Source of the DNA: Enterobacter mori
GTDB taxonomy: Bacteria > Pseudomonadota > Gammaproteobacteria > Enterobacterales > Enterobacteriaceae
Direction: 5' to 3'
Length of the DNA: 64,000 bases
NCBI RefSeq assembly: GCF_025244905.1
Contig: NZ_CP104285.1
Span: forward strand, 434,001-498,000
The translations under genes were made by a program, and so were the position numbers. The notes under the pieces were generated by a model. It was given only the letters and a program-made list of their open reading frames with translations, did no database searches and was not told the DNA's origin. Positions 4,515 to 63,381 of the stretch are shown here, in pieces; the stretch's first letter is position 1; each line of letters begins with the position of its first letter.

Positions 4515-4995
<481 letters not shown>

Positions 4996-10376: not shown

Positions 10377-10380
10377 AAGC

Positions 10381-10408: not shown

Positions 10409-10417
10409 GTTTTTGCA

Positions 10418-10450: not shown

Positions 10451-10471
10451 CATCAGGCCGCAGCGGCCTTT

Positions 10472-11134
10472 TCATTCCCCCGCTAATGCCCGCGGGAACA
10501 GAACGTTGTTCTCAAGACTGATGTGTTCCATCAGGTCGTCGATCATCTCGTTAATGCCGTTGTACATCGCTTTCCAGGTGGTGCACGCCTCTGGCGGCGG
10601 CGTGACGTTGTGGGTGGTGTGTTTGATCACTTCCAGCAGTTCACCGGCGTCATCGTGCTCGCTTTCCATCACGCTGATGGGCCCCATCGTCTGGCTGCCC
10701 ATGCCCTGTTTAATCATCGGGAAGAGGATCTGCTCTTCTTTCATCATGTGGCTGGACAGCTCTTCGTGCAGCATGGTCAGGTATTTTGCCAGACCGCGCG
10801 GTACGGAAGGTTTGTCGGCATGGACGCGCTCAACTTTGGTCGCCTGCAGGATCAGCTCGGGCAGCTGTTCACGGTGGCGGTCGTGGTATCGCACTATGAT
10901 ATGGTCGATGATTTCAGCGAGCGGTGCGGTGCGCCAGTCTTTATCGATGGGCTGCTCGGCCAGCTGTGCCAGCTCGGCTTCAATCACATCGACATCCAGC
11001 TCTTTACGCGACGCTGCGCGCGCCAGGGTTTGCTTACCGCCGCAGCAGTAATCCATATCGTATTTACGGAAAAGCGCAGAAGCGCGAGGAATGGAGAGCG
11101 CCAGCTCGCCAAGGGGTTGGTCGCGAAAGGCCAT
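10472..11134 (-). CDS. ytfE: Iron-sulfur cluster repair di-iron protein YtfE (RIC)
   Basis: YtfE repairs Fe-S clusters damaged by nitric oxide or oxidants. The 220-residue protein has an N-terminal DUF542 domain with the paired cysteines ([11 protein letters not shown], about residues 26-36) and a hemerythrin-like di-iron domain with His/Glu ligands in [32 protein letters not shown] and ESEHDDAGE. An NsrR-type operator lies 27 bases upstream at 11161-11183, which fits NO induction. Confidence 0.96.
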
Positions 11135-11160
11135 AGCAGTTACCTCATCATCAATAATAT

Positions 11161-11183
11161 AAGATGCATATTAAATACATCTT
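11161..11183 (-). promoter_or_regulatory. NsrR operator of ytfE
   Basis: The 23-base near-palindrome AAGATGCATAT-T-AAATACATCTT fits the known 11-1-11 NsrR motif. It lies just upstream of ytfE, the best-known NsrR target. Confidence 0.85.
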
Positions 11184-11312
11184 TAAAGTGATGCTATAAC
11201 CCTTTAGAGGGAAGGGATGAAATGAGAAGCAGATCACAAAAAAATACCCCTTTTAACTCCCTGAATGGACATAAGAAAGTGCTTTAGAAAGTTTTTAAAG
11301 GTGTAGAAACAG

Positions 11313-11339
11313 TAAACAACGCGCCGTGCCTGCCGATAG
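11313..11339 (+). promoter_or_regulatory. Sigma-28 (FliA) promoter of the chemoreceptor at 11380
   Basis: TAAA (11313-11316), 15 bases, then GCCGATAG (11332-11339) matches the flagellar class 3 consensus TAAA-N15-GCCGATAA with one mismatch. It ends 40 bases before the start codon. Confidence 0.85.
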
Positions 11340-11379
11340 ATACACGTCAGACAATACCTGCATATAAAAAAGGCAACGC

Positions 11380-13029: not shown

Positions 13030-13035
13030 GGGCTT

Positions 13036-13105
13036 GCCCGGTGGCGGCTACGCCTTACCGGGCCTACGATTTTGTAGGTCGGGTAAGCGCCAGCGCCACC
13101 CGGCA
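13036..13105. repeat. Paired REP palindrome (BIME)
   Basis: Two REP units in opposite orientation, GCCCGGTGGCGGCTACGCC and, after GTAGGTCGGGTAAGCG, CGCCACCCGGC, form a head-to-tail pair between the convergent chemoreceptor gene and ytfF. Confidence 0.85.
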
Positions 13106-13109
13106 AAAA

Positions 13110-14075
13110 TCACATCTCCGACGCCGGAACAACCCTCGGTTTTTCCGGCTTCGCTCTTACTGCAATCACCACCCCAACGACCAGCAATAAAATTCCACAG
13201 GCCGTTAACAGCGGCGGCACGCTCTGGCGCATCAGGAAGGTGTAAAGCAGCCCGGCAAGAGTTTCGAAGACAATCAGGGGCCCTAAAATTACCGTCGGCA
13301 ACTTCTGGCTGGCAATATTCCAGCACAGCGCGCCCACCCAGGAGCACAGCACCGCAATCGCCACCATCAAGCCTACAAACAACCACGGCCTTGGACCGAA
13401 GGGCTGGGCAAATTCCGGCTGTTGATAACCTAACCAGATACACGCGGCGACATACCCCACGAGCGAGACGGGCAACGTGACCAGCGCCTGCGCCGTCGCC
13501 CACATCATCGGGTGCTTATCCGGATTCTCCCGCAGCCAGCGCGCATTGCGCAGGGCATACCAGGCCCAGCACGCTACCGAGATGAATGCTAAAAGGATCC
13601 CAGAACCGTAACGCCATAAGCTGAAGTCTTCCAGGCCGTGGCTCAGCTCGGCAACGTTCACACATACCAGCCCTATGGCGGTGCATACCAGTGCAGGGGC
13701 CATTTTTGACCAGGCGAGTTTGCCATCGCGGTGGCTATAGAGCAGATTCGCGAACACAGGTATAACGACGGGTAGCGTACCGATGATCATGGTCGACACC
13801 GGCGCACCGGTGCGCTGTATCGCGCTTGCCAGGCAAACGTAATAGATGAGGTTGCCCATCATGGTCAGCGCCAGCGCGGTCAACCAGTCCTGGCGGCTGA
13901 GCTGGCGCAAGCGCGCCCGCCCCAGCCAGGCCAGAGGGAGGGCAATCAGCCCCAGCGCCAGATAACGCCCCGTGGACTGCAGTATCGCCGGGTACTCTGG
14001 CACTATTAGCGGGCCGACAAAAATCAGCCCCCACATCAAGCCTGCAAGCAGGGCATACAACACGCCGCTAATCAT
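13110..14075 (-). CDS. ytfF: EamA-family inner membrane transporter YtfF
   Basis: YtfF is a ten-segment DMT-superfamily protein of unknown substrate. The 321-residue product is the same length as E. coli YtfF, with the start MISGVLYALLAGLMWGLIFV. The ATG at 14075 is preferred to an in-frame GTG four codons upstream because it restores the E. coli length. An AraC-type regulator gene on the same strand ends 75 bases upstream, so the two may share a transcript or be functionally linked. Confidence 0.92.
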   Translation of the reverse strand: MISGVLYALLAGLMWGLIFVGPLIVPEYPAILQSTGRYLALGLIALPLAWLGRARLRQLSRQDWLTALALTMMGNLIYYVCLASAIQRTGAPVSTMIIGTLPVVIPVFANLLYSHRDGKLAWSKMAPALVCTAIGLVCVNVAELSHGLEDFSLWRYGSGILLAFISVACWAWYALRNARWLRENPDKHPMMWATAQALVTLPVSLVGYVAACIWLGYQQPEFAQPFGPRPWLFVGLMVAIAVLCSWVGALCWNIASQKLPTVILGPLIVFETLAGLLYTFLMRQSVPPLLTACGILLLVVGVVIAVRAKPEKPRVVPASEM

Positions 14076-14150
14076 TTTTCCATCCACATTGATTTACTTT
14101 GCACTCAGTGTAGGAGGGCGAAATACGTGCGTATTGTATGAGATTGCGCA

Positions 14151-14975
14151 TTAGCGCTGCGCAACCTGCTTTTGATAACGCACCGGCGTAATGCCGTAGC
14201 GGCGGGTAAAGGCGCGGGTTAAATGCGACTGATCGGTCAGCCCGGTTGCGGCAGCCACTTCGGCGGCGGGCATACCGTGAGTGAGAAACGCTTTGGCACG
14301 CCACAGGCGTATCGCCATCAGCATTTGATGCGGCGTGATGTGAAAATGGGCCTTGAACTGGCGCTGGAAATGGTACGGGCTGAGCGAGACAACGTTTGCC
14401 AGCTCGTCCAGCGTCAGAGGGTGCATATAGTTATCGTGCAGATACTCGCGGACACGTTCGAACCGGTGTGCGCCTTCCTGAATCACCGGCGCGTGATGGG
14501 CTAACGGTCGGAACGTCTCAATCAGATCCAGCAGCATTCCTTTTTGTGCCAGCGGGTCGTTCGTATGCCACAGGCCGTAAATCAGCTGACCGATTTGCAG
14601 CGAGCGCTGCGGGTCGTAGCGGGTGACGTCGCTAAACCACCAGTGACGCAGGCCGGTGACCTCTTCGAGCAGGTCGGGTTCGATATAGACCATCCGGTAG
14701 CGCCAGCCGTCAACGGTTGCGGATTCCCCGGTGTGGATCTCGTCCGGGTTCATGGTGACAACGGATTTCTCGGGGGCGAGGTGCTGGGTACCGCGATAGC
14801 GGAAGCGTTCGGCACCGGTTTCAATGGTGCCAATGCCGAAGGCTTCGTGCGTGTGAGGCTCAAAGGCGTAGTCAGAGATATGTGCGTGATAGAGTTCCAG
14901 GCCCGGCAGCTGCGCCAGATGGCGAAAGCGCGCGCTGTCTCTCTCATCAATGAACTGTTCCGGTACGCCTTGCAC
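14151..14975 (-). CDS. AraC-family transcriptional regulator
   Basis: The 274-residue protein has an N-terminal cupin-type AraC ligand domain (HTHEAFGIGTIETG, about residues 41-54) and a C-terminal double helix-turn-helix with LDELANVVSLSPYHFQRQFK and AAEVAAATGLTDQSHLTRAF. It resembles regulators found next to amino-acid or metabolite exporters. It is co-directional with and just upstream of ytfF, an EamA transporter, so control of ytfF is a reasonable inference. E. coli has no such gene here. Confidence 0.88.
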   Translation of the reverse strand: MQGVPEQFIDERDSARFRHLAQLPGLELYHAHISDYAFEPHTHEAFGIGTIETGAERFRYRGTQHLAPEKSVVTMNPDEIHTGESATVDGWRYRMVYIEPDLLEEVTGLRHWWFSDVTRYDPQRSLQIGQLIYGLWHTNDPLAQKGMLLDLIETFRPLAHHAPVIQEGAHRFERVREYLHDNYMHPLTLDELANVVSLSPYHFQRQFKAHFHITPHQMLMAIRLWRAKAFLTHGMPAAEVAAATGLTDQSHLTRAFTRRYGITPVRYQKQVAQR

Positions 14976-16458: not shown

Positions 16459-18402
16459 CTACTTGCTTAGGTCTACCTGATAAATCGCGAATCCAATATC
16501 ATCCGTCGCAACCTTCTTCATCGGATACTGCGCTTTATCCTTAATAAACGCGGCTGCCTTGTCGGACGGTGAGGTTTCAAAGCGGATATCCAGCTTCGTC
16601 TCGCTGTGGATCGGTGCCAGACGCCAGTTGTTATCCACTGCCGGATGAATTTCGCCCGCTTTTTTCGACTCCGCGCCGATCCACGCCGCCAGCACCGAGC
16701 GGTTCTCGTCCGGTGAAGCAAAAGCGATGTGGCTATCGCCCGTTCCGGCAAACTTGCCGCCGTAGGCGCGGTAGTTATTGGTCACCACCAGGAAGGTGGC
16801 ATTCGGGTCGATCGCCTTGCCGTTGAAGGTCAGGTTTTTTATACGCTCGGCCTGCGGGTTAATCGCCTGGCACTCGCCGTCATATTTCGCAGGCTGGGTA
16901 ACGTCAATCTGATACTCCACGCCGTCGATCACGTCGAAGTTGTAGGTGCGGAACCCATCCCAGTTAATCAGCGACTGCGGCTTGCTGCTGTTCGGGTCAA
17001 TCTGATTAAACTGCCCGGCGGAACACTCCAGCCACTCTTTCACCTCTTTGCCCGTCGCTTTGACGACGACCAGCGTATTCGGATAAAGATAGAGATCGGC
17101 GGCGTTACGGAAGGTCAATTGGCCTTTTTCGACTTCCACGTAGCTTGCTGGGTCATTTTTGCGCCCACCCACCTTGAACGGTGCTGCGGCTGAAAGCACC
17201 GGCAGTTTTGCCAGATCCGGATCGCCCTGCACAAAGTGTTCGGCATAGGCTTTCTGCGCCATGTTGACCACCTGAACGGTCGGGTCATCCTGAACCAGCG
17301 CCAGGAAGCTGTACATGTTGTCGGCGGATTTGCCGATCGGCTTGCTGACAAATTCGCGGGTAGCGTCGTGATCGTGCTTCAGCACGTCGACCAGCTTTTT
17401 ATCTTCAGTTGCCAGAGATTTTTTAGCCGCAGCGTCGTAAATAGGACGCGCTTCGGCTTTTGACTGCGTCACCTTCCAGCTGCCACCGTCGTTATTCAGC
17501 ACCAGATCCACCACGCCAAGATGATCGCCCCACATCCCCGGCATCACCGACGGCACGCCGTTGAGCGTCCCTTTCTCGATATCTGCGCCTTTGATGCTGG
17601 CGAAATCTTTGCCCGGGAAGACTGCGTGAGCGTGGCCGAACAGGATCGCGTCAACGCCCGGCACTTCGCTCAGGTAGTAAACCGAGTTTTCTGCCATCGC
17701 CTGATACGGATCGGCGGAGAGACCCGAGTGGGCAACAACGACCACCAGATCGGCGCCTTTTTCGCGCATTTCCGGCACGTATTTGCGCGCGGTTTCGGTG
17801 ATGTCGTTGACGGTCACTTTCCCGTCGAGGTTGGCTTTATCCCACGTCATGATCTGTGGTGGCACAAAACCGATATAGCCAATCTTCAGCGTCTGCTTTT
17901 TACCTTCGCTGTCGACAACGTCAGTCTCTTTAATCAGATAAGGGGTAAAGAGCGGCTTTTTGGTCTTAACGTCGATGATATTGGCGTTAACGTACGGGAA
18001 TGTCGCACCGGCCAGCGCATCGTGCAGGTATGTCAGACCATAGTTAAATTCGTGGTTGCCGAGGTTGCCGACGGTGTAATCCAGGGTGTTCATCGCCTTG
18101 TAGACGGGATGGATTTCGCCCTTTTTCAGCCCTTTCGCGGCCATGTAATCGCCCAATGGGCTACCCTGAATTAAATCCCCGTTATCGACCAGCACGCTGT
18201 TTTTCACTTCACCGCGGGCGGCGTTAATCAAACTTGCTGTGCGTACCAGTCCGAATTTTTCGGTAGGCGTATCTTTGTAGTAATCGAAGTCCATCATGTT
18301 ACTGTGAAGATCGGTCGTTTCCAGAATACGAAGATCCACCGTTGCCGCCTGAACGCTGGCGGCCACCAACGTCGCCAGGAGCGTTGCGCTAAACTTAATC
18401 AT
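16459..18402 (-). CDS. cpdB: Periplasmic 2',3'-cyclic-nucleotide 2'-phosphodiesterase/3'-nucleotidase
   Basis: CpdB degrades 2',3'-cyclic nucleotides and 3'-nucleotides in the periplasm. The 647-residue product starts with a signal peptide ([19 protein letters not shown]), then a calcineurin-like metallophosphatase domain with [29 protein letters not shown] and GHAHAVFPG metal motifs, then a 5'-nucleotidase C-terminal domain with the substrate-stacking [13 protein letters not shown] region. The ATG at 18402 gives exactly the E. coli length. It is divergent from cysQ. Confidence 0.97.
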
Positions 18403-21823: not shown

Positions 21824-22040
21824 AGTTTATCCGGCTTCTCGCCAGATCCTCAGAAGGGGAGTTGATACCATTTGTGTGAAGACACATTGAACGTCAGCTC
21901 GTAGCGTTGAGCCGATTATTTCAGCGGGTAGTATAGCGTAAAGAGATGTAAATCTGCCAGAGGTCACATTTTGGGCAAAAAAGTGGCCGGACGGGGGGTT
22001 AATGAGGGGGAGTACATCATGAGATAGTACAGGCGTTTCC

Positions 22041-44632: not shown

Positions 44633-45916
44633 TCAATGGGTTATCGCGCGCAGCATCGCGCGAGTAACGAGTACAATTCCCTCTTCCGAGCGATAAAAAC
44701 GGCGTGCATCCTCATCGGCATTAACGCCAATTACCATTCCTTCCGGAATGTCACAGCCACGCTCGATAACACAGCGAGCAAGATGGCAGCCTTTGCCGAT
44801 GCGGGTATCTGGTAAAATAACGCAGCTATCTATGTGGCAGTCGGCATCAATATTAACGCGCGGGAAAAGGACCGATCTCATGATATCGGACCCGGTTACG
44901 ACGCAGCCGCTCGATACCAGCGAGTTTTGCGTGAGGCCATGATTCCCCTGCTCATTCTCTATAAATTTTGCGGGAGGAAGGGACTCCATGTACGTGCGGA
45001 TAGGCCATTTTGGGTCATACATGTTCAGATCCGGTTTAGCACAGACTAAATCAAGATTGCTTTTCCAGTAGGCGCTGAGCGTACCGACATCCCGCCAGTA
45101 AATGCTGTCATCCGCGCAGTCCTTGACGCAGGAATGGGCGAAAGAGTGTGCCCAAACGCTGCCCTGGCGGGTGGCCTTAGGAATGATGTCTTTACCGAAG
45201 TCATGGCTCGACTGGGGATCCGCGCTGTCTTCCAGCAGCATTTGATAGAGGCACGCGGCATTAAAAATATATATTCCCATCGACGCAAGCGATTGCGTGG
45301 GATCGCCAGGAAGTGTTGGGGGAACCGCTGGCTTCTCCACGAAGTCGATAACTTTATGATTCTCGTCGATAGCCATAACGCCAAATTCACGTGCGTCCAC
45401 CACCGGAACAGGGAGACAGGCGACGGAACAGAGGGCATTTTTTTGGACATGGTCAAGCAGCATGCGGGAGTAATCCTGCTTATAGATATGATCGCCTGCC
45501 ATAATGACAATATATTCTGCGCCGTACCGTTTTATAATATCGATATTTTGCGCGACGGCATCCGCAGTCCCCCTGTACCATCTTTCGTCATGTTTTCTTT
45601 GCTGAGCAGGTAACAGGTCTATAAATTCGTTCATTTCGTTACTGAGGAATGACCAGCCTCGTTGAATATGCTGAACGAGGGTATGTGATTGATATTGAGT
45701 AATTACCCCTATGCGTCGGATACCTGAGTTGAGGCAATTTGAAAGCGCAAAATCAATAATGCGGAATTTGCCTCCAAAGTGTACGGCAGGCTTAGCCCGC
45801 AGCGAGGACAAATCTCTTAGCCGCGTGCCTCTTCCTCCAGCCAGAATAATCGCGACCGATTTGGCAGGCAGTTGTTTGGCCAGGTATAGCGATTCCAGAT
45901 TACTTTCTTCTTTCAT
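44633..45916 (-). CDS. Glucose-1-phosphate adenylyltransferase, accessory copy
   Basis: The 427-residue protein is a GlgC: it makes ADP-glucose from ATP and glucose 1-phosphate for glycogen. Motifs are [13 protein letters not shown] (nucleotide loop), [20 protein letters not shown] (the Lys that binds the activator in E. coli GlgC is kept), [27 protein letters not shown] (substrate Lys) and a C-terminal left-handed helix domain. It is not beside glgB, glgX, glgA or glgP, so this is a second copy outside the usual glg operon. It opens the minus-strand cluster. Confidence 0.88.
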
Positions 45917-46637: not shown

Positions 46638-46982
46638 TCATTGTAACATTGAGATAAATGAGCGTGTTGTCATACGGCATTTCTACGGAGATGCTCCGTG
46701 CCTTGCGTCTCATAAGAAAACCTTATCCAGCTCACATTTTCATACATTGCGTACTGGCGATTTGTGCTTCCTTGTCCCATTGCTTACGCGTTATAGCGTG
46801 ATATTCATCACGCAAATCATTCATTTTATCCATTTTCACCTGAATTATGTGGCACAGATCACTGCTGCTGCTCGCCTTTCCACTTCGAAGTGGAAAACAA
46901 CTCGCTACAAACAATCCCCCCTCAACGTTAGTTTTACCCCAGAGCCATTAACGGGGTAAGACCAGTGATTAACGGAGCGGTA
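46638..46982. other. Intergenic region before the SFCGS/DUF4310-4312 locus
   Basis: This 345-base gap carries the promoter of the following operon. A CRP-like site lies at 46848-46863. On the minus strand a short open frame (46732-46914) ends DEYHAITRKQWDKEAQ and might be a coding remnant, but it has no ribosome site. Nothing else is recognised. Confidence 0.4.
46848..46863 (+). promoter_or_regulatory. CRP-like site
   Basis: TGTGG-cacaga-TCACT matches the CRP consensus TGTGA-N6-TCACA at 8 of 10 positions. It lies 120 bases before the operon and would give catabolite control. Confidence 0.5.
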
Positions 46983-47303
46983 ATGAACGACGTTGGGGAA
47001 CAGGCGGAGCAAACAGAGCAGCTCGCGAACACCATGCTGCAGCAGGTTTATGCCCTGCTTGCCCGGCACAACATCATCCCCAATGCGGTACAGGAGCAGA
47101 TGCTCACCTCCCACGTTCGCGCGATGGCGCACCGGTCCGTGACCGGCGAGCCGCTGCCGGAGGTTGAAGCGGAACTGTTCGACGAAATTTCACCAGATTC
47201 AATGCAACTTGCCCGTGAAGTGGTGGCGCAGTTTGGCAACCTTCCTGATGAAGAAGCCTGGCTGCTCTCCGTTCACTTTGAAGTCGCGAAAGACAACCTT
47301 TAA
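46983..47303 (+). CDS. Small stand-alone PRD-domain protein (EF_0829/AHA_3910 type)
   Basis: The 106-residue protein is a single PTS-regulation domain without DNA- or RNA-binding part. PRD histidines appear in LTSHVRAMAHRS (about 43-54) and LLSVHFEVAK near the C-terminus. A family of such proteins, EF_0829/AHA_3910, is known only from this gene cluster. It may sense phosphorylation by PTS proteins, or inhibit the larger PRD regulator at 53741. The ATG at 46983 behind CGGAGCGGTA is preferred to one at 46965. The next gene starts 10 bases later. Confidence 0.78.
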   Translation: MNDVGEQAEQTEQLANTMLQQVYALLARHNIIPNAVQEQMLTSHVRAMAHRSVTGEPLPEVEAELFDEISPDSMQLAREVVAQFGNLPDEEAWLLSVHFEVAKDNL

Positions 47304-47313
47304 GGAGCAACAC

Positions 47314-47676
47314 ATGGAACAGATTACAGTCGTGATTGGCGATCGCCTGGGCAAAGGTCAGAAAGTGGCCGCTGGTGTGGAAAAAGCGGGCGGACGTGCG
47401 GTTGTCGTACCGGGTATGGCTGCCGATATGAAGCTCGGCGACATGATGAAAGCGGAAAACGCCACCTTCGGCATCTCCTTCTGCGGCAGCGGCGGCGCGG
47501 GCGCTATCACCGCGCAAACCAAATATGGCTACAAAGCGAAATACGGCATGCGTTCCGTGGAAGAGGGCGTGACCGCCATCAACGAAGGCTGCAACGTGCT
47601 GGGCTTTGGCTTTATGGATAAAGAAGAGCTGGGCGAGCGTCTGGTACAGGCGTGGCAGAAGAAATACGGCGCATAA
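47314..47676 (+). CDS. SFCGS-motif glycine-rich protein (DUF2620, EF_0830 type)
   Basis: The 120-residue soluble protein contains the family hallmark GISFCGSGGAGAITAQTKYG (about residues 53-72). The fold looks alternating beta-alpha (QITVVIGDRLGKGQKVAAGV; GRAVVVPGM; NVLGFGFMDK). Cys57 in a Gly-rich loop resembles the phosphocysteine loop of EIIB proteins, though here it lies mid-chain. Family function is unknown. It has a TAAGGAGCAACAC ribosome site and is followed at once by the DUF4312 gene. Confidence 0.82.
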   Translation: MEQITVVIGDRLGKGQKVAAGVEKAGGRAVVVPGMAADMKLGDMMKAENATFGISFCGSGGAGAITAQTKYGYKAKYGMRSVEEGVTAINEGCNVLGFGFMDKEELGERLVQAWQKKYGA

Positions 47677-47678
47677 GC

Positions 47679-47978
47679 ATGAAAGAACAGTTCACAACCA
47701 CGGTGAGAGTGAAGGGGAAAGGCGACGCCAAAGCGCGCGCCTTTGCCGACGCGCTCAACCACGTTCAGGCCGCGGTGATGAAAGCCTCACCGCATATCTT
47801 ACTGCGTATTGAGCCACAGGATGTGCAGGTTGTTCAGGCGCAAGAAGCGGTGCGTAAAGAAGCGTTTCTGTTCTTCTTTTTGCGCCGGGAAAGACGCACC
47901 TACAGCGTGGAGCTGGATGTGACCGTCAACGTGACCGCCATCAATCTCGACCAGGTGGATTTCGTCACGCAACGCTGA
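47679..47978 (+). CDS. DUF4312 protein (EF_0831 type)
   Basis: The 99-residue protein starts MKEQFTTTVRVKGKGDAKA and has a basic FFFLRRERRTY segment, then a strand-rich C-terminus. The family is known only with the SFCGS, DUF4311 and DUF4310 genes. The ATG is 2 bases after the SFCGS stop; GCATAAGCATG leaves little room for a separate ribosome site, so translation is probably coupled. Function unknown; a soluble subunit of the permease is likely. Confidence 0.8.
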   Translation: MKEQFTTTVRVKGKGDAKARAFADALNHVQAAVMKASPHILLRIEPQDVQVVQAQEAVRKEAFLFFFLRRERRTYSVELDVTVNVTAINLDQVDFVTQR

Positions 47979-48000
47979 TTATTCATAAAAGGGCAGACTG

Positions 48001-48777
48001 ATGTTCTTAATTATATTAATAAAATCGCTCATCATTGGCGGCCTGGTTGGCGTCGGTGTCGGAGCCGGGGCTGCACGCATGTTTCATGCGCCTACCACTC
48101 AGGGTATGGGCGCGTTTCGTACGTTGGGGGAACTGAACTCCTGTGAAGGGGATCCGGCGTCCCACTTCTCCTTCGGGTTAGGTTTCTTCTTTAACGCCTG
48201 GGCCTCTTCCGTGGCCGCAGGTGCCTTCACACAGGACGTTGACCACCGCATCATCCCGAACTGGGGTGCTGCCGCACTGATGATCAAAAACCGTAACGTC
48301 GGCGAAACGCTGCACGATCCGCGCAAAATGGCGATTGCCTGCGGCGTGATCGGCATGCTCGTCGTGACCTTCCTTAACCTGACCGCCTCCTCCGTTCCGG
48401 CCGCGCTTCAGGTCACCGCCGTGAAGGTGCTGGTCCCGGCGGCTAACCTGCTGGTCAACACCGTGATGCCGGTGATCTTCTGGCTGGCGGCCATCGACGC
48501 GGGTAAAAAATCGGGCTTCTGGGCCACCATTTTTGGCGGCGCGGCGCAGCTGATTATGGGCAACGCCGTGCCGGGCCTGGTGCTGGGCATCCTGATCGGT
48601 AAAGGCGTGGAAGAGAGCGGCTGGAACCACGTCACCAAAGTGATGATGGCGGCTATCGTTCTGCTGTTCGTGCTGAGCGGCTTCTTCCGCGGCTTCGACA
48701 TGAAGATGATCGAATCCTTCCATCTGACCGTGCCGAACTGGCTCGACATGATCCACAACTCGCTCAGCGGTAAATAA
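48001..48777 (+). CDS. DUF4311 membrane protein (EF_0832/AHA_3913 group)
   Basis: The 258-residue protein has about six to seven hydrophobic segments, beginning MFLIILIKSLIIGGLVGVGV, with a Gly/Ala-rich N-terminus and a conserved-looking HFSFGLGFFFNAWASSVAAG. The C-terminal third has VPNWLDMIHNSLSG. I infer the first half of a two-subunit permease with the DUF4310 protein. It follows DUF4312 by 22 bases. Confidence 0.8.
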   Translation: MFLIILIKSLIIGGLVGVGVGAGAARMFHAPTTQGMGAFRTLGELNSCEGDPASHFSFGLGFFFNAWASSVAAGAFTQDVDHRIIPNWGAAALMIKNRNVGETLHDPRKMAIACGVIGMLVVTFLNLTASSVPAALQVTAVKVLVPAANLLVNTVMPVIFWLAAIDAGKKSGFWATIFGGAAQLIMGNAVPGLVLGILIGKGVEESGWNHVTKVMMAAIVLLFVLSGFFRGFDMKMIESFHLTVPNWLDMIHNSLSGK

Positions 48778-48790
48778 CAGGAGCCTCTAC

Positions 48791-49432
48791 ATGGAACAGA
48801 ATAAAGGTTTTTGGTATGCCGACTGGTCGTTCCCGATCTTCGTTGGCCTGCTCTCCTCCGGCGTCTTCGCCGGGACGCATATGTACTACCTCTACGGCAT
48901 CGGCGCGTTTAACGAAGTGGCCTTCGTGGCGATGCTGAAAGCAGGAATCGATACCGGCGTCTACGGCGCGGTGGCGGCGTTCGGCGCGAGCTTCCTGTTC
49001 GCCCGTATTATTGAAGGGTCGCTGGTGGGCATCCTCGACATCGGCGGCGCCATCCAGACCGGCGTAGGCCTTGGCGTACCGGCGCTGCTGCTGGGGGCAG
49101 GCATCATGTTCCCGGTGACCAACTTCATTGCTTCGCTGATCACCGGCCTGGTGATTGGTCTGGCGATTGGCTACGTCATCATCCTGGCGCGTAAGTTCAC
49201 CATCAACCAGAGTAACTCCACCTACGGTGCAGACGTGATGATGGGCGCGGGTAACGCCTCCGGCCGCTTCCTCGGGCCGCTGATTATCCTCAGCGCCATG
49301 ACTGCCTCCATTCCGATTGGCGTCGGTTCCCTGCTGGGCGCACTGCTGTTTTACATCTGGCAGAAGCCGATTACCGGCGGCGCGATCCTCGGTGCGATGC
49401 TGTTGGGCTGGCTGTTCCCGGTCGCCCTTTAA
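48791..49432 (+). CDS. DUF4310 membrane protein (EF_0832-EF_0833 group)
   Basis: The 213-residue protein has about six hydrophobic segments after a short soluble lead (MEQNKGFWYADWSFPIFVGL). It contains paired Gly-rich loops, DIGGAIQTGVGLGVPALLLG and YGADVMMGAGNASGRFLGP. It follows DUF4311 by 13 bases behind CAGGAGCCTCTAC. With DUF4311 it is likely the membrane part of an uncharacterised transporter. Confidence 0.8.
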   Translation: MEQNKGFWYADWSFPIFVGLLSSGVFAGTHMYYLYGIGAFNEVAFVAMLKAGIDTGVYGAVAAFGASFLFARIIEGSLVGILDIGGAIQTGVGLGVPALLLGAGIMFPVTNFIASLITGLVIGLAIGYVIILARKFTINQSNSTYGADVMMGAGNASGRFLGPLIILSAMTASIPIGVGSLLGALLFYIWQKPITGGAILGAMLLGWLFPVAL

Positions 49433-49474
49433 TACCCGCGGGCGCCCTGGCGCCCGTCTTATCAGGAGATCCTC

Positions 49475-50608
49475 ATGTTTGATTTACTCCTGCGCCGTGC
49501 GCGCCTTACCGACGATACCCTGACCGATATCGCCATTCAGGACGGGAAAATCGCGGCGCTGGGCGAGATTGACGCTCCCGCCCGTAAAACGGTTGAGCTG
49601 AGCGGCGACGTATTCGTCAGCGCGGGCTGGATTGACTCCCACGTTCACTGCTACCCGAACTCCCCCATTTACCACGACGAACCTGACAGCGTGGGCATTG
49701 CTACCGGCGTCACCACCGTGGTTGACGCGGGCAGTACCGGTGCCGACGACGTGGACGATTTCTATGAAATCACCCGCAAAGCCTCTACCGAGGTCTTTGC
49801 CCTGCTGAACATCTCACGCGTGGGCCTGATCGCCCAGAACGAGCTGGCTAACATGGCCAACATCGACGCCGATGCGGTGAAGCAGGCGGTGACGCGCCAT
49901 CCTGATTTTATCGTCGGCCTGAAAGCGCGCATGAGCAGCAGCGTGGTCGGTGAAAACGGCATTACGCCTCTGGAGCGGGCGAAAGCCATTCAGAAAGAGA
50001 ACGGCGACCTGCCGCTGATGGTGCACATTGGCAACAACCCGCCGAACCTCGACGAAATTGCCGAGCTGCTGAGTTCCGGCGACATTATCACCCACTGCTA
50101 CAACGGCAAACCCAACCGCATTCTGACGCCCTCCGGCGAGCTGCGCGCCTCCATCACCTCCGCCCTGAAGCGCGGCGTGCGGCTGGACGTCGGCCACGGT
50201 ACGGCGAGCTTCAGTTTTGAGGTGGCGAAACGCGCCATCGCGATGGGCATTCTGCCGCACACCATCAGCTCGGATATCTACTGCCGCAACCGCATCAGCG
50301 GCCCGGTCGGTTCGCTGGCAAGCGTGATGTCGAAGTTTCTCGCCATCGGCATGTCGCTGCCGCAGGTGATTGACTGCGTCACCGCCAACGCCGCCGACGG
50401 CCTGCGCCTGACGCGCAAAGGCCGGATCCAGCCGGGTCTCGACGCTGACCTGACGCTGTTCACGATTAAACGCCAGCCGACGGTGCTGACGGATGCTGAA
50501 AACGACAGCCTGCAGGCTGAACACATTCTGGTGCCGCTTGCCGCGATCCGCGCGGGCAAGGGCTACATGACCGAACAAGGGAGCACGGAACATGCCTTCG
50601 ATTTATGA
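49475..50608 (+). CDS. Amidohydrolase/deacetylase family metalloenzyme (EF_0837/AHA_3915, COG3964)
   Basis: The 377-residue TIM-barrel amidohydrolase shows a full binuclear metal site: HVHCYP (about residues 57-62), the lysine region GLKARMSS (about 149), MVHIGNN, THCYNGKPN, GHGTASFSF and TISSDIYCRN with the last metal Asp. COG3964 members include enzymes that cut N-acyl or acetyl groups, so removal of an acyl group from an amino sugar acid is a reasonable guess. The next gene overlaps its last 17 bases. Confidence 0.85.
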   Translation: MFDLLLRRARLTDDTLTDIAIQDGKIAALGEIDAPARKTVELSGDVFVSAGWIDSHVHCYPNSPIYHDEPDSVGIATGVTTVVDAGSTGADDVDDFYEITRKASTEVFALLNISRVGLIAQNELANMANIDADAVKQAVTRHPDFIVGLKARMSSSVVGENGITPLERAKAIQKENGDLPLMVHIGNNPPNLDEIAELLSSGDIITHCYNGKPNRILTPSGELRASITSALKRGVRLDVGHGTASFSFEVAKRAIAMGILPHTISSDIYCRNRISGPVGSLASVMSKFLAIGMSLPQVIDCVTANAADGLRLTRKGRIQPGLDADLTLFTIKRQPTVLTDAENDSLQAEHILVPLAAIRAGKGYMTEQGSTEHAFDL

Positions 50609-51710
50609 AAAGTACAACTTAAAACAGGTTATCAACACCTCTGGCCGCATGACGGCGCTGGGCGTCTCCACGCCGCGCCCGGAAGTGGTGCAGGCGGCGA
50701 TGGACGGCATGAATCACTATTTCGAGATGAAGGATCTGGTCAACAAAACCGGGGAGTACATCGCGAAGCTGCTGGATGTGGAAGGTGCGACGGTCGTTTC
50801 CTGCGCGTCGGCGGGCATTGCCCAGTCCGTGGCGGCGGTGCTGGTCAAAGACAGCGACTGGCTGCTGGAAAACCTGCACGTCACCCCGATTGAGAACAAC
50901 GAAATCGTCCTGCCGAAAGGCCACAACGTGAACTTTGGCGCGCCGGTGGGCAGCATGGTGGCGCTGGGCGGCGGTAAGCTGGTGGAAGCGGGCTACGCCA
51001 ACGAATGCTCTGCCGATCAGCTGGCGGCGGCAATTACCCCGCGCACGGCGGCGATCCTCTACATTAAATCTCACCACTGCGTACAGAAAAGCATGCTCAG
51101 CGTGGAGCAGGCGGCGGTTGTCGCGCGTAAACACGATCTGCCGCTGATCGTTGATGCCGCAGCGGAAGAAGATCTGCACGTGTACTACCGCTCCGGCGCG
51201 GATCTGGTGATTTACAGCGGCGCGAAGGCGATCGAAGGGCCAACCAGCGGGCTGGTAATCGGCAAAACCCAGTACGTTGAGTGGGTGAAGCGCCAGACGG
51301 CGGGCATTGGTCGTGCCATGAAGGTGGGTAAAGAGGGCATTCTCGGCCTGACCTGCGCCATCGAACACTACCTGACGGCGACCAAAGAGAGCGGGGCTGA
51401 GATGGTGGCGAAGATGACGCCGTTTATCGACGCGCTCAACACCCTGAACGGCGTCACCGCGCGCGTGGTTTGGGACAGCGCCGGTCGCGACATCGCCCGC
51501 ACCGAGATTAAATTTGACGAAGCCGCAACGGGCGTCGGCACGGGTGACCTGGTGGCGAAGCTGAAACAGGGCGAATACGCCATTTACTTCCGTGGCTACA
51601 AGGCCAACGAAGGGATTATCGAAGCGGACGTGCGCAGCGTGAATGCTGACCAGCTGAACATCGTCTACCGCCGCATTAGCGAAGTGTTAGGACAGGAGAA
51701 AAATGCATGA
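50592..51710 (+). CDS. DgaE-like PLP-dependent ammonia lyase
   Basis: The 372-residue fold-type I PLP protein belongs to the SelA/DgaE group; the PLP lysine is in YSGAKAIEGPTSG (about residue 213). DgaE of Salmonella turns D-glucosaminate 6-phosphate into 2-keto-3-deoxy-6-phosphogluconate and ammonia. Although related to selenocysteine synthase, its length and its place between an amidohydrolase and an aldolase favour a DgaE role. It overlaps both neighbours, 17 bases before and 4 after. Confidence 0.85.
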   Translation: MPSIYEKYNLKQVINTSGRMTALGVSTPRPEVVQAAMDGMNHYFEMKDLVNKTGEYIAKLLDVEGATVVSCASAGIAQSVAAVLVKDSDWLLENLHVTPIENNEIVLPKGHNVNFGAPVGSMVALGGGKLVEAGYANECSADQLAAAITPRTAAILYIKSHHCVQKSMLSVEQAAVVARKHDLPLIVDAAAEEDLHVYYRSGADLVIYSGAKAIEGPTSGLVIGKTQYVEWVKRQTAGIGRAMKVGKEGILGLTCAIEHYLTATKESGAEMVAKMTPFIDALNTLNGVTARVVWDSAGRDIARTEIKFDEAATGVGTGDLVAKLKQGEYAIYFRGYKANEGIIEADVRSVNADQLNIVYRRISEVLGQEKNA

Positions 51711-52447
51711 AACTGACCCCCAACTTTTACCGTGACCGCGTCTGCCTGAACGTGCTGGCAGGGTCGAAGGCCAACGCCAGCGCCATTTACGAGGCGGCGG
51801 AAGGCCACGTGCTGGTGGGCGTGCTCTCCAAAAACTACCCGGACGTAGCCAGCGCGGTTGCGGATATGCGCGAATACGCGAAGCTGATTGATAACGCGCT
51901 TTCCGTTGGGCTGGGCGCGGGCGATCCGAACCAGTCGGCGATGGTGAGCGAAATCTCCCGCCAGGTGCAGCCGCAGCATGTTAATCAGGTCTTTACCGGC
52001 GTCGCCACCAGCCGCGCGCTGCTGGGGCAGAATGAGTCCGTGGTCAACGGTCTGGTCTCGCCGACCGGCACCGTCGGAATGGTGAAAATCTCCACCGGCC
52101 CGCTGAGCAGCACGGCCCCGGACGGCATCGTGCCGGTTGAAACCGCGATTGCCCTGCTGAAAGATTTCGGCGGCAGCTCCATCAAATACTTCCCGATGGG
52201 CGGCCTGAAGTGCCGCGACGAGTACAAGGCGGTGGCGGAAGCCTGCGCCCGTCACGACTTCTGGCTGGAGCCAACGGGCGGTATCGATCTGGAAAACTAT
52301 GAGGAGATCCTGCAGATCGCCCTCGACGCGGGCGTGAGCAAAATCATCCCGCATATCTACAGCTCGATTATCGACAAAGCCAGCGGCGATACGCGCCCGG
52401 AAGACGTGCGCACGCTGCTTGCGATGACGAAGAAGCTGGTGAAGTAA
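51707..52447 (+). CDS. DgaF-like 2-keto-3-deoxy-6-phosphogluconate aldolase (EF_0839/AHA_3917)
   Basis: The 246-residue class I aldolase has the Schiff-base lysine in SSIKYFPMGGLK (about residue 164) and the phosphate-binding EPTGGIDL loop. DgaF-type enzymes split KDGP to pyruvate and glyceraldehyde 3-phosphate. It starts in the ATGA of the dgaE-like gene and ends the run of overlapping genes. A repeat pair follows at 52472. Confidence 0.88.
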   Translation: MKLTPNFYRDRVCLNVLAGSKANASAIYEAAEGHVLVGVLSKNYPDVASAVADMREYAKLIDNALSVGLGAGDPNQSAMVSEISRQVQPQHVNQVFTGVATSRALLGQNESVVNGLVSPTGTVGMVKISTGPLSSTAPDGIVPVETAIALLKDFGGSSIKYFPMGGLKCRDEYKAVAEACARHDFWLEPTGGIDLENYEEILQIALDAGVSKIIPHIYSSIIDKASGDTRPEDVRTLLAMTKKLVK

Positions 52448-52471
52448 AACAAAAGCAAAACCAAAACCTTA

Positions 52472-52553
52472 CCCCTCACCCCAGCCCTCTCCCCAAAGGG
52501 GAGAGGGTGTAATCGTCCCCTCTCCCCTTTGGGGAGAGGGTTAGGGTGAGGGG
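52472..52553. repeat. Paired CCCTCTCCCC-family repeat before the lactonase gene
   Basis: CCCCTCACCCC with hairpin CCCTCTCCCCaaaGGGGAGAGGG, then the mirror copy ending GGGTGAGGGG. It divides the aldolase gene from the lactonase gene, which has its own ribosome site further on. Confidence 0.85.
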
Positions 52554-52584
52554 AGGAATACCGCACAAACCCGAAGGAGCCACC

Positions 52585-53721
52585 ATGCACACCCGTACCC
52601 TGCTTGTCGCTTCACTCTCTTTACTGGCTACCGCCGCTGTTGCTCAAACCCAGTATGCCTGGGTCGGCACCTACAACCCCAACGGCGAAGGGCTTTACCG
52701 CTTTACCGTTGACCCGCAAACCGGCGCGCTGGGTAACAAAACGCTGGTGAGCAAACTGCCGAATGCGGCGCAGTTGACCCTTTCACACGACGGTAAAACG
52801 CTCTATCTGGCAAGCGAAGTGGAGCAGGGCGTGGTGCAGGCGCTGCGCGTCGGCGATAACGGGGAGCTGAGCGAGCTCAATCAGGCAGCGTCCGGCGGTG
52901 CCGGGCCGGTGTATCTTTCACTGACGCCGAACGGTAAGCATCTGCTGGTGGCGAACTATGTCAGCGGAACCGTCGCGGTGCTGCCCGTTAACGCAGACGG
53001 CAGCCTGGGGGATGCCACGGATAAACATCAGGATCAGGGCGAACCGGGTGCAGCAAAACCGGAAGCCGCTGTAGAGGGCAGTTTCGCTATCAGCGATCAC
53101 AACGGCCCGCATGCGCACATGATCGCCGCCGATCCGAGCGGGAGGTACGTTTTTTCCACCGATCTGGGGTTAGATCGCATCTATCAGTACCGCTTTGACG
53201 ATCGAACCGGAAAGCTGACGCCAAACGATCCGCCGTTTATCAGTGCCTCTTCGAAAGGGGCCGGGCCACGCCACTTTGTCTTTACGCCAAAAGGCGATGC
53301 CCTGTGGCTGATTAACGAAGAGGCGTCTACGCTCACCCATTATACCGTGAACGCCAACGGCACCTTAAAAGAGGGTAAAACGCTTTCAGCCCTGCCGGAA
53401 GGTTACAAAGGCACCAGCTTTGCTGCGGGGCTGGCATTAAGCGCCGACGGTAAACAGCTGTATGTGGCTAACCGTTTGCATAACAGCATCGGGCACTTTA
53501 CCGTAACAGCGGAAGGGACGCTGACCCATCAGGACGATATCTGGACGCGCGGCGACTATCCGCGCACCCTGACGCTCGATAAACAGGGGCGCTGGCTGTA
53601 CGTCATGAATCAGCGCAGCGACAACATTACCCGTTTCCGCGTGGCGCAGGACGGAAAATTAAGCTTTGAGCCAGACTATACCCCGGTCGGCAGCCCATCC
53701 CAGATGGTCATTTCACCTTAA
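52585..53721 (+). CDS. Secreted lactonase-family seven-bladed beta-propeller protein
   Basis: The 378-residue product has a signal peptide (MHTRTLLVASLSLLATAAVA, cleavage near AVAQTQ) and a 6-phosphogluconolactonase/YkgB-type beta propeller: YAWVGTYNPNGEGLYRFTVD, DHNGPHAHMIAADPSGRYVF and GAGPRHFVFTPKGD. E. coli Pgl is cytoplasmic and shorter, so this is a periplasmic relative. It may open a sugar-acid lactone before uptake by the permease encoded upstream. The ATG at 52585 follows CCGAAGGAGCCACC. Confidence 0.82.
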   Translation: MHTRTLLVASLSLLATAAVAQTQYAWVGTYNPNGEGLYRFTVDPQTGALGNKTLVSKLPNAAQLTLSHDGKTLYLASEVEQGVVQALRVGDNGELSELNQAASGGAGPVYLSLTPNGKHLLVANYVSGTVAVLPVNADGSLGDATDKHQDQGEPGAAKPEAAVEGSFAISDHNGPHAHMIAADPSGRYVFSTDLGLDRIYQYRFDDRTGKLTPNDPPFISASSKGAGPRHFVFTPKGDALWLINEEASTLTHYTVNANGTLKEGKTLSALPEGYKGTSFAAGLALSADGKQLYVANRLHNSIGHFTVTAEGTLTHQDDIWTRGDYPRTLTLDKQGRWLYVMNQRSDNITRFRVAQDGKLSFEPDYTPVGSPSQMVISP

Positions 53722-53740
53722 GCCGTAAGAGGACAAACCC

Positions 53741-55651
53741 GTGCGATTTCCGAACCAACGTTTAGCGCAACTTTTCGATTTGTTGCAAAACGAGACGCTG
53801 CCGCAGGACGAGCTGGCGCAGCGGCTGTCGGTCTCCACGCGAACCGTCCGTGCCGATATCACCGCCCTGAACGCGCTGCTGGCAAGCCACGGCGCGCAGT
53901 TTATTCTCAGCCGCGGCAATGGCTATCAGCTCAAAATTGACGATGCTGAACGATACCAGCAATTACAGGCATCCCACCCGCGCGCGCTGCGCATTCCCCG
54001 GACCGGTCCCGAGCGCGTGCACTATCTGGTGGTACGTTTTCTTACCTCAGCGTTTTCCCTCAAGCTGGAAGATCTGGCGGACGAGTGGTTCGTCAGCCGC
54101 GCCACGCTGCAAAGCGACATGGTGGAAGTGCGCGAGTGGTTCCATCGCTACAACCTGACGCTGGAAACCCGTCCGCGCCACGGCATGAAGCTGTTTGGCA
54201 GCGAGATGTCCACCCGCGCGTGCCTGACCGACCTGCTCTGGGAGCTGGCGCAGCAGGACAGTCTCAACCCGCTGGTGACCGAAGTTGCTCTCAACGCGGG
54301 TGTGCCGGAGCAGATGGTGGCCGTGCTGCACGAGGCGCTGACGCGACATCACATCCGCCTGACCGACGAAGGCGAGCTGTTCCTGCGCCTGTACTGCGCG
54401 GTGTCGGTACGTCGTATCAGCGAAGGTTTCCCGCTTCCGGAATTCCACGCGGAAGATGTGGAAGAGAACGTGCGTGAAGCGGCGAAAGATATTGCGGTGT
54501 CTATCCAGCATCTGGCGGGGAAACCGCTTTCGCCTTCGGAAGAGAACTGGCTGTGCGTGCACATTGCGGCGCGGCAGATTCAGGAGATTGCCCCGAGCGC
54601 CATTAACGCTGATGACGATGAAGCGCTGGTCAACTACATCCTGCGCTACATCAACACCCACTATAACTACAACCTGCTCAGCGACGAGCAGCTTCACGCG
54701 GACCTGCTCACGCACATCAAAACCATGATCACCCGCGTGCGGTATCAAATCATGATCCCCAATCCGCTGCTGGATAACATCAAGCAGCACTACCCGATGG
54801 CCTGGGATATGACCCTCGCGGCGGTGTCGAGCTGGGGGAAATACACGCCGTATGTGATCAGCGAAAACGAGATCGGCTTCCTGGTGCTGCATATTGGCGT
54901 CGGGCTGGAGCGCCACTACAACATCGGCTACCAGCGCCAGCCGCGCGTGCTGCTGGTGTGCGACGCCGGTAATGCCATGGTCCGCATGATTGAAGCAGTG
55001 CTGCAGCGTAAATACCCGCAAATTGAGGTCACGCGCACGCTTACCCTGCGCGAGTACGAGCTGGCGGAAACGATTAGTGAAGACTTTGTGATCGCCACCG
55101 CACGCGTCAGCGAAAAGTCGAAACCGGTGGTGACGATCGCCCCGTTCCCGACTGATTATCAGTTAGAGCAGATCGGCAAGCTGGTGCTGGTGGACCGCAC
55201 CCGCCCGTGGATGCTGGATAAATACTTCGACGCGGCCCATTTCCGCATTATCGACAAGCCTGTTGACCAGCAAACGCTGTTCCGGGAACTGTGCACGCAG
55301 CTTGAAGGCGAGGGGTTTGTCGGCGCAGAGTTTCTGGACTCCGTCGTCGAGCGTGAAGCCATCGTCAGCACCATGCTCGGCGACGGCATTGCGCTGCCGC
55401 ACTCACTCGGCCTGCTGGCGCAGAAAACGGTGGTCTATACCGTGCTCGCCCCGCACGGCGTCCCGTGGGGGGACGAAACCGCGCACGTCATCTTCCTGCT
55501 CGCCATCAGCAAAAGCGAATACGAAGAGGCGATGGCGATTTACGATATCTTCGTCACCTTCCTGCGCGAGCGGGCAATGTCGCGGCTGTGTGGCTGCGGA
55601 GATTTTGCCGCGTTTAAGGCGGTGGCAATGGAGAGTTTGAGTCGGTTTTGA
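53741..55651 (+). CDS. PRD-type transcriptional activator with EIIB and EIIA domains
   Basis: The 636-residue protein has an N-terminal winged helix (LPQDELAQRLSVSTRTVRAD), a second helix-turn-helix of Mga type (LKLEDLADEWFVSRATLQSD), two PRDs (about 185-290 and 295-400), an EIIB-like domain (VLLVCDAGNAMVRMIEAVLQ) and a C-terminal EIIA-like domain with the active histidine in ALPHSLGLL. Such MtlR/LicR-like proteins activate sugar operons and are tuned by phosphorylation from HPr and a cognate EIIB. It starts with GTG 20 bases after the lactonase and very likely controls the operon at 46983. Confidence 0.9.
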   Translation: MRFPNQRLAQLFDLLQNETLPQDELAQRLSVSTRTVRADITALNALLASHGAQFILSRGNGYQLKIDDAERYQQLQASHPRALRIPRTGPERVHYLVVRFLTSAFSLKLEDLADEWFVSRATLQSDMVEVREWFHRYNLTLETRPRHGMKLFGSEMSTRACLTDLLWELAQQDSLNPLVTEVALNAGVPEQMVAVLHEALTRHHIRLTDEGELFLRLYCAVSVRRISEGFPLPEFHAEDVEENVREAAKDIAVSIQHLAGKPLSPSEENWLCVHIAARQIQEIAPSAINADDDEALVNYILRYINTHYNYNLLSDEQLHADLLTHIKTMITRVRYQIMIPNPLLDNIKQHYPMAWDMTLAAVSSWGKYTPYVISENEIGFLVLHIGVGLERHYNIGYQRQPRVLLVCDAGNAMVRMIEAVLQRKYPQIEVTRTLTLREYELAETISEDFVIATARVSEKSKPVVTIAPFPTDYQLEQIGKLVLVDRTRPWMLDKYFDAAHFRIIDKPVDQQTLFRELCTQLEGEGFVGAEFLDSVVEREAIVSTMLGDGIALPHSLGLLAQKTVVYTVLAPHGVPWGDETAHVIFLLAISKSEYEEAMAIYDIFVTFLRERAMSRLCGCGDFAAFKAVAMESLSRF

Positions 55652-63104: not shown

Positions 63105-63381
63105 ACCGCCCGAATTGCCACAAACGGTATGGTTAAATCCTTATACTGCGCGGCGACACCCTACTTTTACTTACCGGAGGCCACATGGATCCCGATCCCA
63201 CACCTCTCCTGAACGGGAGAAAACGTTCTTTCCGGTAAGCCAGCTTTTGCTGTCTCACCGGTGATGTGAGGCAGCAACGTCCCAAACGTTCCTGCTTGAA
63301 AAATTGAGTGCCTCTCAGGTACGGCTTTGCCACGCCTGAAGGAAATGCTGCGTCCGCATTCGCGGATGCGGAGGAATGACT
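63105..63381 (+). promoter_or_regulatory. mgtA leader (Mg2+/proline-responsive)
   Basis: The long 5' leader of mgtA switches between structures that let or block Rho-dependent termination, depending on Mg2+ and on translation of mgtL. It holds mgtL at 63185-63238. Close to mgtA, TCCGCAT (63353-63359) pairs with ATGCGGA (63366-63372), covering the left half of the GGAGGA ribosome site. Confidence 0.75.
63185..63238 (+). CDS. mgtL: mgtA leader peptide MgtL
   Basis: The 17-codon frame encodes MDPDPTPLLNGRKRSFR. Salmonella MgtL is also 17 residues and begins MEPDPTP. The Pro codons at positions 3, 5 and 7 let translation respond to proline and Mg2+ supply. GGAGGCCAC precedes the ATG. One of the Salmonella prolines (position 9) is replaced here. 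Confidence 0.85.
   Translation: MDPDPTPLLNGRKRSFR

Follow-up and report, generated by a model that had tools for sequence, protein, structure and literature searches.

We analysed a 64,000-nucleotide stretch of Enterobacter mori DNA (the window) and found, at positions 46983-55651, ten plus-strand genes (open reading frame (ORF) list; Pfam and NCBIfam profile searches) encoding a small PRD protein, SFCGS, DUF4312, DUF4311 and DUF4310 proteins (the last four being the DUF proteins below), an amidohydrolase, a DgaE-family lyase, a 2-keto-3-deoxy-6-phosphogluconate (KDGP) aldolase, a lactonase and a PRD regulator. Tentatively, and with less than even confidence, we read them as an operon governed by the phosphoenolpyruvate (PEP)-dependent phosphotransferase system (PTS) for taking up an N-acylated 2-amino-2-deoxy sugar acid, most likely N-acetyl-D-glucosaminate, and degrading it by an Entner-Doudoroff-type route. 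On this reading, five families of no assigned function that occur together across Proteobacteria and Firmicutes gain a testable role, PTS-coupled entry of amino sugar acids. If true, it also points to substrates for the COG3964 amidohydrolase group, whose solved members were deposited as dihydroorotase or adenine deaminase.

Conservation of the locus

A search with the SFCGS protein returned 1138 relatives at E values up to 0.01 (best 120 listed), and a scan of genome contigs confirmed at least 499 places, 80 of which were kept. We counted 88 loci of at least 10 kb each (L numbers; genomes bear G numbers), excluding the window, all shorter loci and one Bartonella plasmid that nearly duplicates another. 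These 88 cover four classes or phyla and include a single alphaproteobacterium. Their gene order was nearly fixed, PRD-SFCGS-DUF4312-DUF4311-DUF4310-amidohydrolase-DgaE-aldolase, accompanied by the PRD regulator. DUF4311 was present in all 88 loci, DUF4312, SFCGS and DUF4310 in 87 each, the amidohydrolase, lyase and aldolase in 86 each, the PRD gene in 85, the regulator in 84 and the lactonase in 30. Among the loci counted as missing the PRD gene, L110 and L112 carry a diverged copy and L039 begins within the operon; the regulator was counted missing in three loci whose flank is cut short (L032, L050, L091) and in one with a full flank (L071).

An almost identical order in 88 further loci indicates that the arrangement in the window is more than chance. 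The four DUF families, for which the earlier note had proposed a co-occurrence search, stood together in nearly all of the loci; that note had described the EF_0829-EF_0839 families as conserved together in Enterococcus and Aeromonas, and the joint conservation stood while the range proved far wider, reaching across Proteobacteria and Firmicutes. These results support reading the cluster as a conserved unit for uptake and catabolism; we found no substrate assigned to it.

Among evenly drawn genomes, 12 of 398 in the window's phylum had a DUF4310 gene, as did 8 of 398 in the Firmicute phylum to which G398 belongs, 7 of these scoring over the cut-off; both counts include the centre genome. Searches of the class of G563 (13 genomes) and of the order of G404 (32 genomes), with G563 and G404 themselves counted, brought up no further carrier, and none of 5,426 E. 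coli genomes matched window positions 46965-52447 at near identity.

Extra ORFs of at least 120 residues between core genes occurred in L013 and L110 only. No intervening ORF of this size was kinase-like, as judged from Pfam or NCBIfam for L013 and from the sequence start alone for L110; kinases elsewhere in the genomes were not searched. In L114, the regulator, the PRD gene and the four DUF genes are kept and all three catabolic enzymes are missing, which suggests that the retained genes form one module. Furthermore, a HAD-type phosphatase gene lies 3' of the aldolase gene in four Firmicute loci (L112, by Pfam; L110, L111 and L113, by sequence start). In L016 of Aeromonas caviae (8876-13282), an internal deletion has fused the start of DUF4310 into the aldolase, and the amidohydrolase and lyase are missing. 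Outside the operon, close to two loci of Firmicute origin, are genes (L111, 15877-19231; L113, 1331-4688) whose sequence starts resemble those of a KdgT-type permease, a four-carbon acid sugar kinase and a PdxA-like dehydrogenase.

The lyase and the aldolase point to a 6-phosphate

In the Salmonella D-glucosaminate-6-phosphate ammonia lyase (DGL), Arg301, Arg332 and Arg346 lie close to the phosphate of the docked substrate, and C3 is protonated by His163, according to excerpts of PMC9529869. We found the equivalents of the three arginines, of the lysine that binds pyridoxal phosphate (PLP) and of His163 each conserved in 89/89 distinct full-length lyases, that of the window included (95/95 when repeated sequences are counted). 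Since the phosphate-site arginines are kept in all lyases, the substrate likely carries a 6-phosphate. Against the narrow DGL equivalog model, the window lyase scored 381 bits (cut-off, 600); it therefore belongs to the DgaE family without being a DGL equivalog, and its exact sugar may differ. The locus copy is the only DgaE-family gene over the cut-off in the genome, which also has a single DUF4310 gene.

The aldolase has solved relatives in 3m0z and 3nzr. An ammonia lyase followed by a KDGP aldolase that releases pyruvate and a C3 phosphate, as the earlier note had proposed, fits these data: family models are exceeded and active-site residues are kept. As far as sequence comparison goes, the catabolic part of that proposal holds up, and its 6-phosphate step is strengthened.

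Links with the PTS

In the small PRD protein, H44, R51, E91 and H98 were conserved in 86/86 distinct sequences, and they were the only invariant columns in an alignment of 34 chosen PRD proteins with identity to the window's down to 17%. We take H44 and H98 to be the usual PRD phosphorylation positions. The window's protein scored 21.1 bits against Pfam PRD, under the cut-off of 23. In the regulator, His 325 and His 384 of PRD2 were retained in 82/82 sequences, the histidine of the enzyme IIA (EIIA) domain in 74/82 and the cysteine of the EIIB-like stretch in 68/82; the eight regulators without the EIIA histidine are the eight Firmicute ones, all of which retain the EIIB-like cysteine. Pfam assigned HTH_11, Mga, PRD and EIIA_2 to the window's regulator and no sigma-54 activation domain.

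PTS genes adjoin the locus in two unrelated lineages. One is Bartonella, where two plasmids that are nearly identical (L014, L015) carry a gene for an HPr-enzyme I (EI) fusion 64 bases 3' of the regulator gene; the HPr and EI histidine motifs are intact in the L014 fusion. In the Firmicute G563, HPr and EI genes lie on the same strand as the locus, 3' of the aldolase and HAD phosphatase genes and 248 bases past the latter. EI (PF05524) was detected in 48 of 50 chosen carriers, one being a Bartonella plasmid record; EI is common in these groups, so that this count weighs little. HPr-like neighbours on the opposite strand (14 loci) were dropped, as the seven inspected by eye look like NPr of the rpoN-ptsN operon.

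Taken together, the phosphorylatable PRD protein, the PRD/EIIB/EIIA regulator, the adjacent HPr and EI genes in two unrelated lineages and the conserved phosphate pocket of the lyase, with no kinase in the operon, suggest that the module is PTS-linked. The uptake module thus looks tied to the PTS and seems built round the phospho-PRD protein and an RpiB-like protein described below. The earlier note had proposed a new permease and had pointed out that no mannose-family PTS is present; the PTS links found here change that picture.

A conserved palindrome precedes the operon

A perfect palindrome of 20 bases lies upstream of the PRD gene in the window. Its pattern, TTTCC-N10-GGAAA, was found within 300 bases 5' of the PRD gene in 78/85 loci, as against 3/8500 shuffled sequences and 3/1518 random stretches, and upstream of 0/81 regulator genes. 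The seven loci without it are six Firmicute ones and that of Arsenophonus, which has one mismatch. Since the loci are related, the 78 occurrences are not independent events, yet alpha-, beta- and gammaproteobacteria share the palindrome. The window's own palindrome has one exact place in its genome and one more with 3 mismatches. Furthermore, a pattern scan of 41 of the 85 upstream regions found a CRP-like site at the same spacing from the palindrome in 15.

The SFCGS and membrane proteins

By profile comparison, the SFCGS protein is a predicted distant relative of RpiB/LacAB with an invariant cysteine, a kinship that the earlier note had not spotted. At E values up to 10, 20 of the 28 members chosen matched LacAB_rpiB (PF02502; best, 3.5e-5), and the window protein did so with E 0.0083 and 16.5 bits, under the gathering cut-off of 24.7. 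DUF2620, the YhfU family, was listed for 8 of the 28 (best E, 0.015). The invariant cysteine (88/88 distinct sequences) is aligned with Cys66 of E. coli RpiB, which we take to be the catalytic cysteine, and the SFCGS stretch NVLGFG...ELGERLVQAW aligns with NVLAFG...ELAKMIVDAW of RpiB (hhalign E 0.0013, probability 18). An ordinary EIIB identity was rejected, as PTS_IIB was not listed for any of the 28 members at E values up to 10. Searches of solved-structure sequences with SFCGS and DUF4312 profiles gave chance matches only, and no related family was found for most of 29 chosen DUF4312 members.

The AlphaFold2 models of DUF4311 (pLDDT 82.9, pTM 0.61) and DUF4310 (pLDDT 71.3, pTM 0.60) are of moderate quality, and that no fold match was found for them, as reported below, does not establish a new fold. 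The two families did not resemble each other (hhalign probability 0.4). In L110, a single open frame spans PRD and SFCGS; a stretch resembling a ribosome-binding site lies inside it, ahead of SFCGS, so that the product may be one or two proteins.

Group translocation by this module is plausible but unproved. In its most specific form, PRD-SFCGS-DUF4312-DUF4311-DUF4310 would be an undescribed family of PEP-dependent group-translocating permeases in which a PRD histidine (as EIIA) would take phosphate from HPr and hand it to the SFCGS cysteine (as EIIB), which would pass it to the acid during entry by way of two novel membrane subunits, with a cousin in the E. coli yhf operon; we consider this unlikely. 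If true, the relay would add a PTS permease type made of unrelated parts, account for the occurrence of PRD genes with no recognisable EII and give a starting point for work on E. coli YhfT and YhfU. Our literature search found, among the matches listed, no description of the module as a transporter.

The yhf operon of E. coli K-12 (yhfS-yhfZ; L115, 4936-12345) has, like the locus, a small PRD protein, YhfY (hhalign E 2.8e-5). YhfU is weakly similar to SFCGS by Pfam matches (hhalign probability, 0.3), the uncharacterised YhfT gives a hint of likeness to DUF4311 (hhalign E 0.012, probability 3.6), and DUF4310 showed no similarity to YhfT (hhalign probability 0.2). The enzymes of the yhf operon differ, being annotated as an aminotransferase, a PLP-binding protein and a hydrolase. 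The genes yhfY, yhfU and perhaps yhfT may belong with the PRD, SFCGS and membrane genes of the locus to one wider system.

The amidohydrolase, the lactonase and the substrate

The metal ligands of the amidohydrolase (H56, H58, K150, H184, H207, D267) were conserved in 99/99 distinct sequences, and the protein is very close to the solved chain 8wzy (730.6 bits) and related to 2ics and 2ogj. COG3964 enzymes are reportedly (Ornelas 2013) weak hydrolases of N-acetyl-D-serine and good ones of acetyl-(R)-mandelate. Glucosaminate being a D-amino acid, N-acyl-glucosaminate is a fair guess for this enzyme. The lactonase begins with a signal-like stretch, MHTRTLLVASLSLLATAAVAQ, judged by eye and with no signal-peptide program, and presumably acts on a lactone outside the cytoplasm. 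We infer an N-acyl amino sugar acid as substrate from the amidohydrolase family and from this lactonase with a signal-like start.

The domain LPMO_10 (PF03067) was sought in 75 genomes. In an even draw, it was found in 3/12 locus carriers and 6/15 Enterobacterales listed without a match, a group from which five listed genomes below 3 Mb had been left out (Fisher p 0.68); with 48 of the 49 carriers behind the other loci added, the counts were 32/60 and 6/15 (Fisher p 0.40), G370 and G840 being counted separately although identical match coordinates indicate that they are probably one genome. An LPMO_10 gene (G000:C1:503648-504145, minus strand) lies about 5.6 kb past the right end of the window, and in G370 and G279, too, LPMO_10 and DUF4310 genes are no more than some 30 kb apart, probably through shared synteny.

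Proposed scheme

In some Enterobacterales, the presumably secreted lactonase would first open a lactone. DUF4311 and DUF4310 would import the acid with SFCGS, DUF4312 and the phospho-PRD protein as cytoplasmic partners, and the acid would be phosphorylated at C6 during or directly after uptake, most likely by the PTS-linked complex itself. The amidohydrolase would strip the acyl group, the DgaE-like lyase would convert the amino sugar acid 6-phosphate to KDGP and ammonia, and the aldolase would split KDGP into pyruvate and glyceraldehyde 3-phosphate. The PRD regulator would sense the phosphorylation state of the system and act at TTTCC-N10-GGAAA.

Several observations weigh against this scheme. 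SFCGS resembles RpiB rather than a PTS EIIB, and fold searches with the DUF4310 and DUF4311 models gave no PTS permease or known fold among the matches listed. The independent cases of HPr and EI neighbours number only two, and HPr and EI genes also occur elsewhere in G563, whose adjacent pair is therefore weaker evidence and may be housekeeping. EI was not found in G404 or in the metagenome-assembled genome G805, among the 50 carriers, and G404 also yielded no HPr and no PEP-utilizer C domain; the latter was present in 14/14 control genomes, so that the G404 assembly may be incomplete, or the system may work without the PTS there. The His162 position of the lyase is kept in 87/89 sequences, the two Bartonella lyases having alanine. 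LPMO_10 was not enriched among locus carriers; a chitin link was therefore rejected, and oxidised chitin is not specially supported as a source. Lastly, a gene resembling that for 2-keto-3-deoxygluconate (KDG) kinase adjoins the E. faecalis locus.

The alternative that survives best, which we consider somewhat unlikely, keeps the same pathway and makes DUF4310 and DUF4311 an ordinary carrier merely switched by the PTS via the PRD protein, with a kinase encoded elsewhere phosphorylating the acid before the lyase. It would explain why the DUF proteins show no EII fold or family and how G404 retains the locus with no EI detected, and it agrees with the regulatory nature of PRD domains in known systems, as described in excerpts of PMC4987338. 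It sits less well with the kinase-free intervals of the 88 loci, a count that covers intervening ORFs and no kinases elsewhere in the genomes, and with the HPr and EI genes adjoining the locus in two lineages.

SFCGS and DUF4312 could instead be enzymes, SFCGS acting as an RpiB-like isomerase or epimerase on an amino sugar or another epimer, so that the substrate would not be an aldonate. The RpiB/LacAB likeness and the aligned cysteine speak for such a role, but in L114 both proteins stay with the membrane and PRD genes where the three catabolic enzymes are missing, and L110 joins PRD and SFCGS in one frame; we regard it as improbable.

Alternatively, the acid may stay unphosphorylated until KDG, with a housekeeping KDG kinase making KDGP. 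The marine ong pathway of Pseudoalteromonas for N-acetylglucosaminate from oxidised chitin, as far as excerpts of PMC9537276 describe it, takes this course: like the proposed scheme it proceeds by deacylation, then deamination to keto-deoxy-gluconate, and KdgK follows. The kinase-like gene beside the E. faecalis locus fits such a free-KDG route. However, ong differs in having an SSS-family transporter, a KDG kinase and unphosphorylated acids, and its OngB and OngC, of the D-aminoacylase and D-amino acid deaminase types, belong to families different from those of the locus enzymes (PMC9537276, excerpts). Pfam found neither an SSS transporter nor a KDG kinase among the ten locus proteins, and all 89 lyases keep the three phosphate-site arginines. 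We therefore think a free-acid route quite improbable.

Finally, the module might import an acid phosphorylated beforehand, for example a sugar acid 6-phosphate that other microbes release. This would account for an operon that has a phosphate-specific lyase and no kinase, but it would need neither the signal-like lactonase (30/88 loci) nor adjacent PTS components, and seems very improbable.

Known systems

The dga permease of Salmonella is reportedly a mannose-family PTS, going by the title of Miller 2013. Like dgaABCDEF, which serves D-glucosaminate utilisation there, the locus combines a DgaE-family lyase, a DagF-family aldolase and PRD-type control. According to excerpts of PMC9529869 and PMC4987338, dga includes a PTS permease together with a sigma-54 activator that is LevR-like; the locus instead holds the four DUF genes and an additional amidohydrolase, and no sigma-54 domain is listed for its PRD regulator. 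The earlier note had stated that a mannose-family PTS and a sigma-54 activator are absent, and neither appeared in the Pfam results for the ten proteins, which include no mannose-type EII.

The EF_0829-EF_0839 genes of Enterococcus and Aeromonas comprise the same families in the same order as the window locus. The E. faecalis locus (L013) adds a cellobiose-type EIIC, a 99-residue protein with no family, a MupG-like protein and a PfkB kinase (11548-14283, 17253-18263), which suggests that a phosphorylated disaccharide feeds the same pathway. Unlike the window regulator, that of E. faecalis has no detectable EIIA. The promoter of ef_0839 or ef_2975 turned up in a urine screen (PMC2912369), the genes found enriched in urinary E. 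faecalis included dgaF (PMC10746210), and STM4446, a possible relative of the window lyase, appears in a Salmonella expression table (PMC11000858).

Layout of the locus in the window

Seven window proteins exceed the curated cut-offs of the NCBIfam models for EF_0829-EF_0839 (TIGR03582, TIGR03577, TIGR03578, TIGR03580, TIGR03579, TIGR03583 and TIGR03581), which bears out the earlier placing of an EF_0829-EF_0839-type locus at these positions (Table 1). The genes from PRD to the amidohydrolase are separated by 2 to 42 bases. Several genes had been said to overlap; two pairs do (amidohydrolase/DgaE by 17 bases, DgaE/aldolase by 4), the remaining neighbours are spaced, and 137 bases separate the aldolase from the lactonase ATG. 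This interval (52448-52584) contains hairpin-like repeats, CCCTCTCCCC...GGGGAGAGGG, in two copies, which may set the expression of the lactonase and the regulator apart from that of the operon.

Table 1. Genes and DNA sites of the locus (window positions).
Feature	Position	Strand	Support or remark
CRP-like site TGTGGCACAGATCACT	46848-46863	+	Starts 29 bases before palindrome start; consensus match only
Perfect 20-base palindrome TTTCCACTTCGAAGTGGAAA, presumed operator of the PRD regulator	46877-46896		Starts 106 bases before PRD gene
Small single-PRD protein, EF_0829 family	46983-47303	+	TIGR03582, 140.9 bits (cut-off 69)
SFCGS protein, EF_0830 family	47314-47676	+	TIGR03577
DUF4312 protein, EF_0831 family	47679-47978	+	TIGR03578
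DUF4311 membrane protein, EF_0832 family, presumed permease subunit	48001-48777	+	TIGR03580; hydropathic segments
DUF4310 membrane protein, EF_0833 family, presumed permease subunit	48791-49432	+	TIGR03579; hydropathic segments
COG3964 / EF_0837 amidohydrolase, presumed N-deacylase	49475-50608	+	TIGR03583, 578 bits (cut-off 432)
DgaE-family PLP ammonia lyase	50592-51710	+	TIGR01437, 606 bits (cut-off 385)
KDGP aldolase, EF_0839 / DagF family	51707-52447	+	TIGR03581; NF047796, 394 bits (equivalog cut-off 300)
Seven-bladed lactonase, accessory	52585-53721 (ATG; earlier GTG at 52546 possible)	+	PF10282, 322.8 bits
Regulator: helix-turn-helix, Mga, PRDs, EIIB-like stretch (by eye), EIIA	53741-55651	+	Pfam

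Elsewhere in the window, a GlgC-like (ADP-glucose pyrophosphorylase) gene of 427 residues, recognised by eye, lies on the minus strand at 44633-45916 beside unrelated small genes. Rfam matches over the cut-offs were an RpsF leader (4518-4602), the STnc450 small RNA (21882-21938) and a magnesium riboswitch (63170-63283).

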